DNA from: Bacillota bacterium
Lineage (GTDB): Bacteria > Bacillota_I > Bacilli_A > Acholeplasmatales > Acholeplasmataceae
NCBI GenBank assembly: GCA_018817915.1
Contig: JAHISX010000053.1
Location: 1-64,000 of the forward strand
DNA: 64,000 nucleotides
Direction of reading: 5' to 3'
Within the stretch, counting starts at the first letter, position 1, and the number at the start of each line of letters is the position of its first letter. The position numbers and the translations under genes were made by a program. Positions 10,649-40,175 of this stretch are shown here, piece after piece. The notes under the pieces are model-generated. The model was not told the DNA's origin and did no database searches. It worked only from the letters and a program-made list of their open reading frames with translations.

Positions 10649-10711
10649 GATATACCTCTTTCATAGGAATTATTTGTTGTATATTCTAATCTTTAATGAT
10701 ATGATATAGAT

Positions 10712-10802
10712 GATCACTACGGGGAGCTTAAATGCTGAGAGGACGAAAGTCGACCCGCGAACCTGATCTGGATCATACCAGCGGAGGGATAGTCGACGAA
10801 TC
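10712..10802 (+). ncRNA. TPP riboswitch (THI element)
   Basis: cggggagc...gctgaga...acccgcgaacctgatctggatcataccagcggaggga matches the THI-box core; lies upstream of thiT. Confidence 0.95.
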
Positions 10803-10870
10803 ATTTGTCATTTACTATCAATTTCTTGGTTATCCATAGAAATTTTTTATTTTTCTAAGGAGAAGAAGAG

Positions 10871-35117: not shown

Positions 35118-35484
35118 TTGTCAGTGGAAGGTGATCGAGCCTATTTGATAGGTTAGGAAAGTCCATGCTAGCACATTCTGAGATGAATGTAGTGTTTGTG
35201 TCTAAGGAAAAAATAACTTAGGGTACGAGTAATCGTAACGGCGTTCGATGGTCTAAGGGAAACTATGACCTAGACGTAATGTGCCACAGAAACGAGTTGT
35301 TCAGAAATGAACAAATGAAACGCGGTAAACCCCTCAAGCTAGCAACCCAAATTTGGTAGGGGCACGTATAAAGACGAACTCAAGTCGATATATGCTACGA
35401 AGTAGAGATAAATGGTCACACCCTTTAAGGGAACAGAACATGGCTTATGCACATTGACTATTAAGGTCCTTCGGGACCTTTTTA
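35118..35484 (+). ncRNA. rnpB: RNase P RNA
   Basis: ggttaggaaagtccatgctagcac, ggtctaagggaaactatgacc, gtgccacagaaacgag...gaaacgcggtaaaccc; promoter TTGTTG-17-TATAAT upstream and terminator aaggtccttcgggaccttttt at the end. Confidence 0.93.
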
Positions 35485-36180: not shown

Positions 36181-37176
36181 TTAAAATAGGCCTAAAGCTC
36201 GAATGATGATAAATACGATATATGAGAAGTAGATTGCTACTAATATCCATCCTTCAAATCTAGAGATTTTTTGGTTTGTTATACAGAAAACTATTGTTAT
36301 TATTGTTATACCCATCAAGATGAAGATATCAAATAAAACATCAGCATTGACTCCAAGAGGAGTAACTAGTCCTGATAAACCAACAATAAGTAAAGTGTTA
36401 AATACATTTGAACCGATGATATTACCCAAAGCAATTTCATTTTCACCCTTCTTAGCAGCAACAACGCTTGTGACTAATTCGGGTAGCGATGTTCCAAGTG
36501 ATACAACACTGAGTCCCACAAGCGTTGTTGCTCTGGTTGCTGTCATGCTAAACACATCAACTAATAATTTAGTAGCGATATATTCAGCACCCGATGTGAC
36601 AAGGAAACCACCTAATGTCACGCCTCCTAAACCTAGGATTAATAAAAATATTGCTTTTTTTGTATCAACAAAGTGAATTTCTTCTTCTAAATTGACTTCC
36701 TGATGACTATGAAACATTAAATACATATAGAATGAAAAAAGTGCTAATAAGATCAGTGCTTCCCACCATACTATTTGTGCATCATTTTGAAAGAAAAATG
36801 CGACAATTCCAAATACAAATGTTAGACCAATCAAGAAGGGAAATTCTTGTTTATTCATCGACTTCTTAACTGCAATTGGCATCATAATTGCACTAAAACC
36901 AAGAATTAGTGTTAGATTTACAATATTTGAACCGATGATATTACCCAATGCTATGTCAGCTGTTGTACCATCAGCATGTGCAGATAATGAAGCTACAAAA
37001 CTCACAGCTAGCTCTGGTAAACTTGTTCCAAATGCGACCAAAGTAAGACCAATAATTAGAGGTGAAATTTTGAATTTCTTTGCAATAGATGCTGATGAAA
37101 CGATGAAATAATCTGCACCTTTGATTAATAGAACGAAACCAAAGAGTGTGATGATGACATTCAATGCAATACCCAT
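36181..37176 (-). CDS. CaCA-family (YrbG-like) Na+/Ca2+ exchanger
   Basis: Two alpha-repeats: GTSLPELAVSF...GNIIGSNIVN and GTSLPELVTSVVAAKKGENEIALGNIIGSNVFN. The true start is likely ATG 37176 (after gagagga); the ORF extension to 37272 lies in the leader. Confidence 0.92.
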   Translation of the reverse strand: MGIALNVIITLFGFVLLIKGADYFIVSSASIAKKFKISPLIIGLTLVAFGTSLPELAVSFVASLSAHADGTTADIALGNIIGSNIVNLTLILGFSAIMMPIAVKKSMNKQEFPFLIGLTFVFGIVAFFFQNDAQIVWWEALILLALFSFYMYLMFHSHQEVNLEEEIHFVDTKKAIFLLILGLGGVTLGGFLVTSGAEYIATKLLVDVFSMTATRATTLVGLSVVSLGTSLPELVTSVVAAKKGENEIALGNIIGSNVFNTLLIVGLSGLVTPLGVNADVLFDIFILMGITIITIVFCITNQKISRFEGWILVAIYFSYIVFIIIRALGLF

Positions 37177-37231
37177 GATGTTGTCAGTCCTCTCAATAAA
37201 ATCTAGAATATATATATTTCTGTTATCATAA

Positions 37232-37262
37232 TAAAAACCATCAAGACACCCATCTTGAAGGT
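37232..37262 (-). terminator. Putative intrinsic terminator inside the antiporter 5' leader
   Basis: Minus-strand RNA CCTTCAAGA-TGGGTG-TCTTGATGG-TTTTTATT. Confidence 0.6.
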
Positions 37263-37348
37263 CTCGTATCAAAGGATTAATGAAACTAAACGCTCAAATG
37301 AGATTTGCGCGATGAATTAAAGATTCAAGTTCACCCTATCATGCATCT

Positions 37349-37422: not shown

Positions 37423-37451
37423 TTGACTTTTGGCTATAAAAATAGTATGAT
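37423..37451 (+). promoter_or_regulatory. Promoter of CorB-like transporter operon
   Basis: TTGACT-17 bp-TATGAT. Confidence 0.7.
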
Positions 37452-37457
37452 GTATGT

Positions 37458-37599
37458 ATCACATGGTGATGGAGGACATAAAAGTAGAGATGGAAGAAAG
37501 CAGTAGTAGGATCGAAGATCCAGAATATCCGAAAAGCAAAGACAACATTAATGATGCTTTTTTTGATGTCTTTTTTTGTTGCAAAAAGGGGGGTAAATC
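37458..37599 (+). ncRNA. Structured 5' leader with terminator-like hairpin upstream of CorB-like genes
   Basis: Nested tatgt[atcacatggtgat]ggaggacata, ggatc-gaa-gatcc hairpin, and aaagaca...tgtcttttttt. Confidence 0.45.
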
Positions 37600-38907
37600 A
37601 TGTTATATTCAATAATTAGCATGCTATTACTCGTCATATTATCAGGCATTTTTGCAGCTGCAGAAATTGCATTAGTCGTTGTTAGTGACAATAAGATTAA
37701 TCAAGATGCAGATAAAGGAAATATTAAAGCAATCAGAATTCAAAAATTTTCAGAGTCACCAAGATCATATATGGCAACCATGCAAATGTTTATTGTTCTA
37801 ATCGCATTAGTCAATGGTGCAATTGCTTTAAACACATTCAGTAATTATTTCAGTCAATGGTTTGATAGTTCCTTAGGTTTTATAGAACCTTTAATAATTG
37901 TGATTACAGCATTAATATTGTTGGTGTTCCATGTGGTTTTTGGACAAATGATACCAAGAAGACTAGCTAATAAATATCCAGAAGCATTGGCATATGGATC
38001 CATAGGTTTCATAACTTTAATGACAAAAATGACTTATCCTGTAGTATGGCTTCTTGAACTAATTTCAAGTCTTATTGGTCGAATTTTTGGCCTGGATCCT
38101 AGTGATAGTGAAAGAAAAATGACAGAAGAAGAAATCAGAACTATTGTTGAAGCTAGTGGTAAAATGGGAAACATCGATGAAGAAGAAAGTGAAATGATTC
38201 AAAATATCTTTGACTTTTCTGATACCATTGTTGAAGAAATCATGACCCATCGAACTGAAATTTCAGCTTTAAATGTACGTTCCACAAAGAGCCAAGTTAT
38301 TAAGCATGTTCAAAACGAACAATTTACGAGATATCCTGTTTATGAAGGCGATATTGATCACATCATTGGAACACTTCATGTCAAGGATTTACTCAAATAT
38401 ATTGATAATGTTGAAGAGAAATTCTCAATTAGAAGTTTAATTAGACCCCCTTATTTTATTCCAGATTCGAAAAGAACTAGTGAGCTTTTCAAAGAAATGC
38501 AAAGCACAAAAAATCATATTGCAGTCGTCTTAGATGAATATGGTGGAACTGCTGGTATTGTAACAATTGAAGATTTACTAGAAGAAATTGTTGGAAATAT
38601 TTTTGATGAGTATGATGAAGTAGATGATGAAATTGTTCAAATTGAACAAGGCATATATGAAATCGATGGATTATGTAATATTAATGATGTTGAAGATAGC
38701 ATTGAAGCAGGATTACCAATTGATGATTATGATACTTTAGGTGGATTCATTTTAGGACAACTAGGTCGTTTTCCTAATGAAGATGAAGCTGTTGTTATTG
38801 AGTATCATGGTTATAAATATGAAGTGCTTGAAACAGAGGATAAAATTATCTCTAGAGTTCGAGTAACCAAATTAGAAGAGCAAGATGATTCTTCATTAGA
38901 TGAGTAG
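37600..38907 (+). CDS. CNNM/CorB-type (hemolysin C family) transporter with CBS domains
   Basis: DUF21 TM region, EEEIRTIVEASGKMGNIDEEESEMIQNIFDFSDTIVEEIMTHRTEI, IAVVLDEYGGTAGIVTIEDLLEEIVGNIFDEYD. Confidence 0.9.
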   Translation: MLYSIISMLLLVILSGIFAAAEIALVVVSDNKINQDADKGNIKAIRIQKFSESPRSYMATMQMFIVLIALVNGAIALNTFSNYFSQWFDSSLGFIEPLIIVITALILLVFHVVFGQMIPRRLANKYPEALAYGSIGFITLMTKMTYPVVWLLELISSLIGRIFGLDPSDSERKMTEEEIRTIVEASGKMGNIDEEESEMIQNIFDFSDTIVEEIMTHRTEISALNVRSTKSQVIKHVQNEQFTRYPVYEGDIDHIIGTLHVKDLLKYIDNVEEKFSIRSLIRPPYFIPDSKRTSELFKEMQSTKNHIAVVLDEYGGTAGIVTIEDLLEEIVGNIFDEYDEVDDEIVQIEQGIYEIDGLCNINDVEDSIEAGLPIDDYDTLGGFILGQLGRFPNEDEAVVIEYHGYKYEVLETEDKIISRVRVTKLEEQDDSSLDE

Positions 38908-38918
38908 GTTTACTGAAT

Positions 38919-40175
38919 ATGGAAAGTAATGATTTTATAACGATAGGTGTTTTAATATTTCTGATTCTATTATCGGCATTTTTCTCATCTGCAGAAATCG
39001 CTTTTTCGTCTTTGAATCAGATAAAACTTAAACATTATATCCAAAACGGTAATAAGAGAGCACAACAAACCCTTAAATTGTCTGAAAAATTCGAAAAAGT
39101 TTTAACGACTATTTTGATTGGAAATAATATCGTTAATATTTTATCAGCATCCATAGCGACTGTATTCTTCTTTAAATTTTGGCCCAATTACTATGTTACA
39201 ATTTCAACTGCTGTTATGACAACTTTGGTTTTAGTTTTTGGAGAAATAACTCCCAAAAGTTTAGCGAAGAAAATACCAGAAAAATATGCACTTGCAATTA
39301 CACCAGTGTTACGTGTATTTATTTGGGTTTTGACGCCTCTCAACTGGTTATTTGGTCTATGGCAAAAATTGATGAATAGAATGTTCAAATTCGAAAATGA
39401 AGCAGCAATTACAGAAGAAGAATTATTGACCTATGTTTCTGAAGTTCAGCATGAAGGTGGCATTAACGAAAACGAAGGCGAACTTATTCGTAGTGTTATT
39501 GATTTCGATGACTTGAAAGTTGAAGAAATACTTACACCTAGAGTACACGTGATTGGGGTATCACTTGAAGAAGAAGTTAAGAAAATTGTTCACACATTTA
39601 AGCATACTGGTTACTCTAGACTTCCAGTGTATGACGGGAATATTGATCATATTGTTGGAGTAATTAATCATAAGGATTTTTATAATCTTGTAGTTTTAGA
39701 AAAACAACCACTTGATTCGATTATTAAGCCACCTGTGTATGTTACTGAATATATGAAAGTATCACATTTACTTGAATTATTAAGAGCAAACAAATCACAT
39801 ATGGCTATTGTTAAAGATGAATTTGGTGGAACATTAGGTGTCGTTTCAATGGAAGATATTCTTGAAGAACTTGTTGGTGATATTTGGGATGAGCATGATG
39901 AAATCATTGAACAAATTGTAGAAATTGATGATCAAACATATAGAGTTAAAGGTAATGCAGATCTTGAAGATTTATTTGATTTACTAAAAATAAGTGAGGA
40001 TCTTGATTTTGCAACTGTCAACGGTTGGGTACTTGATGAATTGGGTAGAATAGCAACTGTTGGTGATGAATTTACTTATCAGAACTTAAAAGTTACAGTC
40101 ACTGCAGCCGATACTAAAAAAGTATTAGAAGTATTGATAGAAGTTATCTCTGATGATATCATTGAAGATTTTTAA
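38919..40175 (+). CDS. CNNM/CorB-type transporter with CBS domains (second paralogue)
   Basis: LLSAFFSSAEIAFSSLN, VEEILTPRVHVIGV, MAIVKDEFGGTLGVVSMEDILEELVGDIWDEHDE. Confidence 0.9.
   Translation: MESNDFITIGVLIFLILLSAFFSSAEIAFSSLNQIKLKHYIQNGNKRAQQTLKLSEKFEKVLTTILIGNNIVNILSASIATVFFFKFWPNYYVTISTAVMTTLVLVFGEITPKSLAKKIPEKYALAITPVLRVFIWVLTPLNWLFGLWQKLMNRMFKFENEAAITEEELLTYVSEVQHEGGINENEGELIRSVIDFDDLKVEEILTPRVHVIGVSLEEEVKKIVHTFKHTGYSRLPVYDGNIDHIVGVINHKDFYNLVVLEKQPLDSIIKPPVYVTEYMKVSHLLELLRANKSHMAIVKDEFGGTLGVVSMEDILEELVGDIWDEHDEIIEQIVEIDDQTYRVKGNADLEDLFDLLKISEDLDFATVNGWVLDELGRIATVGDEFTYQNLKVTVTAADTKKVLEVLIEVISDDIIEDF

Follow-up and report, generated by a model that had tools for sequence, protein, structure and literature searches.

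Genes and leaders at the locus

The window, i.e. the whole stretch of 64,000 nucleotides that was analysed, carries two adjacent CNNM genes on its forward strand. CNNM1 (37600-38907), a CorB/MpfA-like gene with CNNM, CBS and CorC_HlyC domains, is followed after 11 nt by a second CNNM gene, CNNM2 (38919-40175), and the two probably share an operon. Both were recognised as such in a preliminary description of this DNA, in agreement with their matches to PF01595 (E 3e-40 and 2e-52). The Glu in the pi-helix of CorB has been described as invariant and Mg2+-binding (PMC8242095). Here CNNM1 reads FGQMIPRR, with Gln in place of Glu111 of the MtCorB pi-helix; together with its closest orthologues it follows FG[QRH].IP[RK]R, i.e. 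Gln, Arg or His at the CorB Glu. CNNM2 retains FGEITPK, and other genera that bear the upstream ORF described below keep FGELVPK. In the clade of the window CNNM1 itself may not be a transporter; it may be a non-transporting, possibly regulatory or heteromeric partner, or it may work differently.

The genes are preceded by a sigma-70-type promoter, TTGACT-17 nt-TATGAT (37423-37451, forward strand), as had been proposed, and the transcript is expected to start near 37458. A TTGAC box was present at the equivalent place in all 27 aligned leaders. On the other side of the promoter region lies a divergent CaCA exchanger gene (PF01699) with its own leader, which is unrelated to that of the CNNM genes.

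The CaCA leader (37160-37340, reverse strand) was also seen at loci L002, L005-L007, L009-L014, L016 and L025. In most relatives it is conserved with the pattern GAAGGGGAGTAGTT...CGTCAGTACGG...CCGGTTAATTTCAAG...GTAACGAGACCTTCAAGAC-loop-GTCTTGATGGTTTTTATT and, on visual inspection, looks similar to yybP-ykoY. In the window this leader is degenerate except for its terminator. CaCA leaders did not match Rfam at the gathering score, the best weak match being SSRC10 in L005 (14.7 bits, E 1.8). At L115, L121, L124 and L127 a ACTACTCCCTTC/ACTACTCCCCTTC block is carried by the strand opposite to that of the CNNM leader; it resembles the CaCA leader and faces away from CNNM1 in other genera. Elsewhere in the window Rfam identified a class B RNase P RNA (35123-35452) and a TPP riboswitch (10710-10806).

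A small ORF in the CNNM leader

The preliminary description treated the CNNM leader as structured RNA and did not include a coding sequence. This account has to be revised. A conserved upstream ORF (uORF) for a predicted peptide of 41 aa, MEESSSRIEDPEYPKSKDNINDAFFDVFFCCKKGGKSCYIQ, runs on the forward strand from an ATG at 37490 to a TAA at 37613-37615 and spans both downstream hairpins. The peptide begins with MEESSSRIEDPEYP and later contains AFFDVFFC. It matches no family in Pfam or NCBIfam, and no earlier description of the uORF or of the leader was found in the open-access literature. As judged from the alignments, the uORF explains most of the sequence conservation of the leader.

A GGAGG Shine-Dalgarno sequence is located at 37471-37475 (forward strand), 14 nt before the ATG. 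This spacing is unusually long; it is about 12-14 nt in several genera and is conserved. Directly 5' of the Shine-Dalgarno sequence is an inverted repeat, ATCAC-ATG-GTGAT (37457-37470, forward strand). Of the nested helices which had been proposed, this one exists in the window but is kept in only part of the genus. At the other end, the CNNM1 start (37600) is situated inside the uORF, in the -1 frame relative to it, and a Shine-Dalgarno-like GGGGGG for CNNM1 (37588-37593, forward strand) lies within the uORF. An alternative start, ATGGAGGAC at 37469, is in frame in the window; it is not a conserved start, since L013 and L010 have a stop that closes this frame and since it is out of frame in L020. 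A programmed -1 frameshift at T TTT TTT that would yield a uORF-CNNM fusion was discarded as well: in the window and in L002, both read by hand, a stop in the -1 frame precedes the ATG of CNNM1.

Conservation within the order

A nucleotide search of relatives retrieved the leader from the whole genus plus part of the family. According to the named records the genus groups the window with Peloplasma aerotolerans and uncultured Acholeplasmataceae. The consensus of the 27 aligned leaders is MExxSxR[IV][ED]DPxYP...FFGVFFC or a close variant, with [ED]DP at residues 9-11 throughout the genus. None of the 24 gapless rows has a stop within the uORF frame, whereas stops interrupt the other two frames in 9 and 24 of them. 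With the uORF profile 36 of 160 genomes in the order were detected at E<1e-7, and all 36 matches are located before CNNM1. Genus coverage was complete (20/20 genomes). The uORF stop is usually a few bases from the CNNM1 start, as ATGA, as TGATG or with the stop one to a few codons inside, and the frame relation is -1 in 25 of the 27 aligned leaders. Overlap or adjacency of stop and start, the geometry of translational coupling, was found in nearly all species.

For genera lacking a profile match, the DNA before the CNNM1 orthologue was fetched and read directly. Most other genera of the family have diverged uORFs; carriers include Acholeplasma laidlawii, A. equifetale and the phytoplasmas. Eight Acholeplasma-like genomes encode M[DE]D...GQR or GHR peptides, mostly MED[ST]SSGQRT..., which end in or near the CNNM start; that of A. 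laidlawii is MEDSSSGQRTTLSDDPHEGVTF, terminating in TAATG. Phytoplasma uORFs start with M[DE]xSDS..., e.g. MDDSDS.... Further diverged starts are MDESSNGQR..., MEDGSSCSSR..., MED[IF]PSYR... and MEESNRLIEDP.... The versions in phytoplasmas, f5 g24 and g6 consist of just a short acidic start without [ED]DP. Samples of CNNM genes in family f3 and in f5 g21 had no such uORF.

Across carriers the uORF is 20 to 44 aa long, and all of them share only the first few residues. An M[DE][DE] start was found in 19 of 24 representative uORFs as compared to 4 of 189 background small ORFs preceded by a Shine-Dalgarno sequence; as the 24 representatives are related, no probability is attached to these numbers. 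The acidic residues 2 and 3 are at least as conserved as an Arg which follows early in the peptide. The N-terminal start is kept across genera without the hairpins, and the conserved part has the character of a translated ORF. The C-terminus shifts its reading frame between genera (L012, L077, L112, L127); the RNA letters stay.

Peptide and RNA constraints

In codons 2-14 of the 24 gapless rows the third position varies at 0.25 versus 0.13 for the first two, as in coding DNA. In codons 23-30 it is the least variable position (0.03 versus 0.05-0.07), unlike coding DNA. Because of this contrast the N-terminal part appears to be held as peptide and the FFGVFFC part as nucleic acid. The dN/dS ratio of the uORF is only about 0.4-0.5 because the peptide is short and its middle is free.

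Codon 7 of the window uORF is the rare arginine codon AGG (37508-37510, forward strand). In the ten window genes that served as the base for codon usage, AGG accounts for 2% and CGG for 1% of Arg codons. AGG occupies this position in all 24 aligned rows, and L075 has CGG. The Acholeplasma group, g14, f5 g24, f5 g25, g3 and a phytoplasma, all without the GGATC hairpin, have AGG at the equivalent Arg as well; within the hairpin AGG could reflect base pairing. An early Arg, mostly AGG, is present in most genera, after a shared start of the type M-[DE]-[DE]-S.... In E. coli early NGG codons are reported to cause peptidyl-tRNA drop-off (PMC12204400). The common denominator of acidic residues 2-3 and an early AGG is a start that would be difficult to translate.

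The hairpin GGATC-GAA-GATCC (37509-37521, forward strand) lies inside codons 7-11 (R-I-E-D-P). It takes the form GGATC-GAM-GATCC across rows. In a gapless alignment of 30 rows its 5 pairs are intact in 99.3% of cells, mostly without variation. This hairpin and a second one, aaagaca...tgtcttttttt, had been noticed previously, and both are real features of the leader. The second corresponds to an intrinsic-terminator-like element (37538-37577, forward strand) with arms AAAGACAAC (37538-37546) and GATGTCTTT (37565-37573) and a U7 tract (37571-37577); an earlier U7 is at 37558-37564. The element spans codons 17-29 of the uORF, its hairpin and U7 tract sitting in the GVFFC codons. The region between the two hairpins is free to vary.

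Comparison of relatives supports the terminator-like element. The FFGVFFC-coding part is GCTTTTTTTGGTGTCTTTTTTTGTT, a U7-tract element, and the U7 tract is invariant in 30 rows. The upstream arm, mostly AAAGA[CU]A.., is able to pair with G[AG]UGUCUUU. In all 30 sequences the pairing of this variable arm to the fixed one is better than the average for shuffled versions of the variable arm (mean z -1.6, rows related), which is suggestive of an RNA element. The outer stem has no two-sided covariation within the 30 rows. In the window the stems are A-U-rich and weak (-7.1 kcal/mol), and a terminator scan of the window did not call the U7 hairpin. Stronger support than the shuffled arms comes from divergent species in which a hairpin before a U tract is kept with other letters or in another reading frame, i.e. 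L074 (GACGGCGC/GCGUCGUU-UUUU), L077-L079 (AAAGAUAAC/GUUGUCUUU), L127 (GACA.../UGUC-U7) and L028 (GGCAU/AUGUC-U7). From these comparisons it appears that the terminator-like hairpin is maintained at the level of RNA, also in species with a different reading frame. An inner terminator hairpin (columns 58-70) was 73% paired with weak two-sided changes and is not claimed.

At L012 (genome G015) the first T run is one T shorter and the FFGVFFC part is frame-shifted; the uORF stop is still beside the CNNM start. This points to a constraint at the level of RNA rather than of peptide in L012.

The leader as a whole did not fold clearly better than shuffled sequences (-26.3 versus -22.1 +/- 3.3 kcal/mol; z -1.27; 22 of 200 shuffles were equally good), and the notion of a structured leader in its entirety was abandoned. 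RNAalifold on 30 homologues predicted no larger conserved fold, only the small 5-pair GGATC hairpin, without covariation. The CNNM leader of the window matched no Rfam family at the gathering score, and a lax E-value gave only implausible sub-threshold matches. Covariance models of the M-box (RF00380) and of yybP-ykoY (RF00080) found no match in it, as the preliminary description had anticipated. The M-box was also absent from 20 genomes of the genus in a search that detected the controls.

Acidic-start uORFs outside the order

Beyond the order, the 80 best CNNM loci in a collection of bacterial and archaeal genomes were inspected. Some Erysipelotrichaceae and other Firmicutes have acidic-start small ORFs, preceded by a Shine-Dalgarno sequence, in front of CNNM, e.g. 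MTEDSEGCDR..., MSDEGSGERR..., MNDDPGDADR..., MEDDPGEAGASR..., MDDNPGESGASS..., MDDVPPDLR... and MDDSPGG.... In five cases the early Arg codon is CGA. At L192, L212 and L225 a hairpin plus T run was seen by eye between the uORF start and CNNM. These examples were chosen by eye out of a larger set; they should be taken as leads and do not amount to a survey. Many CNNM loci of Bacillus and Clostridia had no such uORF. A class-wide profile search beyond the order gave weak matches only, and no inspected locus was before CNNM.

A DNA search for M[DE][DE]xPG[DE]xG, blind to CNNM, was carried out in 98 genomes of the class of L225, another class of Firmicutes. Three genomes matched. All three matches are positioned before CNNM, the third being new, and each has a hairpin and a T7 run (by eye) just upstream of CNNM. 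The pattern M..PG.x.G had no match in 392 genomes of the phylum of the window; this version therefore does not occur in the nearer relatives.

A candidate leader-peptide attenuator

The conservation described above makes control of a cation transporter at the level of the leader well supported. To this extent the earlier suggestion of RNA-level ion control stands; a free-standing, riboswitch-like structure does not. We lean towards the view that the leader works as an attenuator of the leader-peptide type, combined with translational coupling, and that Mg2+ acts as the signal via ribosome stability. The uORF would act in cis. A ribosome would begin the 41-codon uORF close behind RNA polymerase. 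Acidic residues 2-3, the early rare AGG arginine codon and then [ED]DP would render early elongation fragile. With ample Mg2+, stable ribosomes would pass this start, cover the arms of the terminator and finish at the CNNM1 start; transcription would continue and CNNM1 and CNNM2, predicted to serve Mg2+ efflux, would be made. At low Mg2+, destabilised ribosomes would halt or be lost around codons 2-11. The terminator, which occupies codons 17-29, would then form and cause actual termination, and/or coupling to CNNM1 would fail, and the exporter operon would be off. The distances are compatible with this: when codon 11 occupies the P site, the ribosome would extend to about nt 47 of the uORF, and the first terminator arm begins at nt 49, just beyond the predicted reach. 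In genera without the terminator, the overlap of stop and start alone would yield the same sign. That MpfA, a CNNM-family protein, drives Mg2+ export in Gram-positives (PMC6711546) implies that CNNM expression should rise with Mg2+.

A leader of the same construction could report amino-acid or polyamine status or general translation capacity instead of Mg2+, which we consider unlikely, if worth keeping in mind. The early Arg, found in all 24 rows and in most genera, mostly as AGG, and as CGA in the five outside cases, speaks for such a signal. In S. aureus the leader rbfL uses rare Arg codons to sense arginine (PMC13009471), and PaeA of Salmonella, a CNNM-domain protein, exports polyamines (PMC12421838). 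Sensing of arginine, serine or general translation would also fit the AGG codon and the Ser-rich start. However, a single Arg codon is little for an amino-acid attenuator, and the conserved acidic residues 2-3 are left unexplained. Even less probable is a uORF that senses nothing and constitutively loads ribosomes for CNNM1 by coupling or reinitiation. It would agree with the stops and starts that overlap or adjoin in nearly all species, and leader genes may raise downstream translation by reinitiation (PMC4833913); but it needs neither a particular peptide start nor AGG nor a conserved U7/terminator element. That the product is a microprotein which partners the CNNM transporter in trans is suggested by its conservation over a family, always beside CNNM1. 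Its variable length, the restriction of common residues to the first few and a C-terminal frame that changes while the RNA letters do not make this quite improbable. A metal-binding riboswitch with an incidental ORF would account for the small hairpin, invariant in the genus, and for the terminator-like hairpin, but it hardly deserves credence given no Rfam match, five predicted pairs devoid of covariation and a peptide start that is retained where the hairpins are gone.

The candidate sensor is specified to the codon, i.e. E2, E3, AGG7, [ED]DP and the U7 element. Carriers span the culturable A. laidlawii and the uncultured phytoplasmas, and the candidate is testable in the laboratory. The regulation of Mg2+ export genes in Firmicutes and Mollicutes is little known. 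Tentatively, and with less confidence than for the window, one may envisage that Mg2+-sensing leader peptides of CNNM/MpfA-type exporters form a class in Firmicutes. In it an acidic, often Pro-containing start and an early rare Arg codon would gauge ribosome stability. Completion of the uORF would allow RNA polymerase to pass a terminator inside the ORF and/or the exporter to be translated. Such a class would extend from phytoplasmas and Acholeplasma to Erysipelotrichaceae and other Firmicutes, whether it arose or persisted there, and its members would share little but the destabilising start.

Comparison with known systems

Attenuation of pyrBI uses a terminator inside a leader ORF, which is prevented by a ribosome closely behind RNA polymerase; UTP is sensed through polymerase pausing. 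The window leader similarly has a terminator-like element within a putatively translated leader and differs by its acidic-start peptide. In Acholeplasma a comparative scan produced a candidate uORF element, uORFC-13-1 (PMC8632094); it sits before aroF, not CNNM. CruR is a copper-responsive uORF (DUF2946) that heads a transport operon (PMC9426467). Its CXXC and RAPP motifs are absent from the window peptide, and CruR acts with Rho.

In enterobacteria the small ORF YoaL overlaps the upstream region of yoaE (mgpA), a CorC-domain gene linked to high-Mg2+ stress; removal of the YoaL start lowers MgpA translation, and a function under high Mg2+ has been suspected (PMC12421838). By description, both leaders have a small ORF heading a CorC-domain gene. 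The downstream family there is TerC-CBS-CorC, and the lineage is a different one.

The likeness noted between the window uORF and the leader peptides of Mg2+ transport genes in Salmonella and E. coli is the acidic start. In mgtQ of Salmonella the acidic Asp2 and Glu5 impair translation of the uORF and control the downstream mgtB (PMC8092293). There, unlike here, the ribosome-binding site is unmasked through alternative stems and an importer follows. The short mgtL leader, upstream of mgtA, acts by intrinsic ribosome destabilisation and has an acidic EPDP start (E2, D4) just after Met (PMC11282234). Acidic and proline residues likewise stand in the first codons of the uORFs described here, as M[DE][DE] in 19 of 24 and as [ED]DP at residues 9-11 in the genus. 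MgtA, however, is an importer that is switched on at low Mg2+ through Rho, whereas our leader precedes an exporter-type gene, contains a terminator-like element inside the uORF, has overlapping stop and start and would be expected to have the opposite sign. Finishing the uORF would license expression, the mirror image of mgtL. If so, ribosome destabilisation would control efflux of Mg2+ in addition to its uptake, and would do so in a lineage distant from the enterobacteria.
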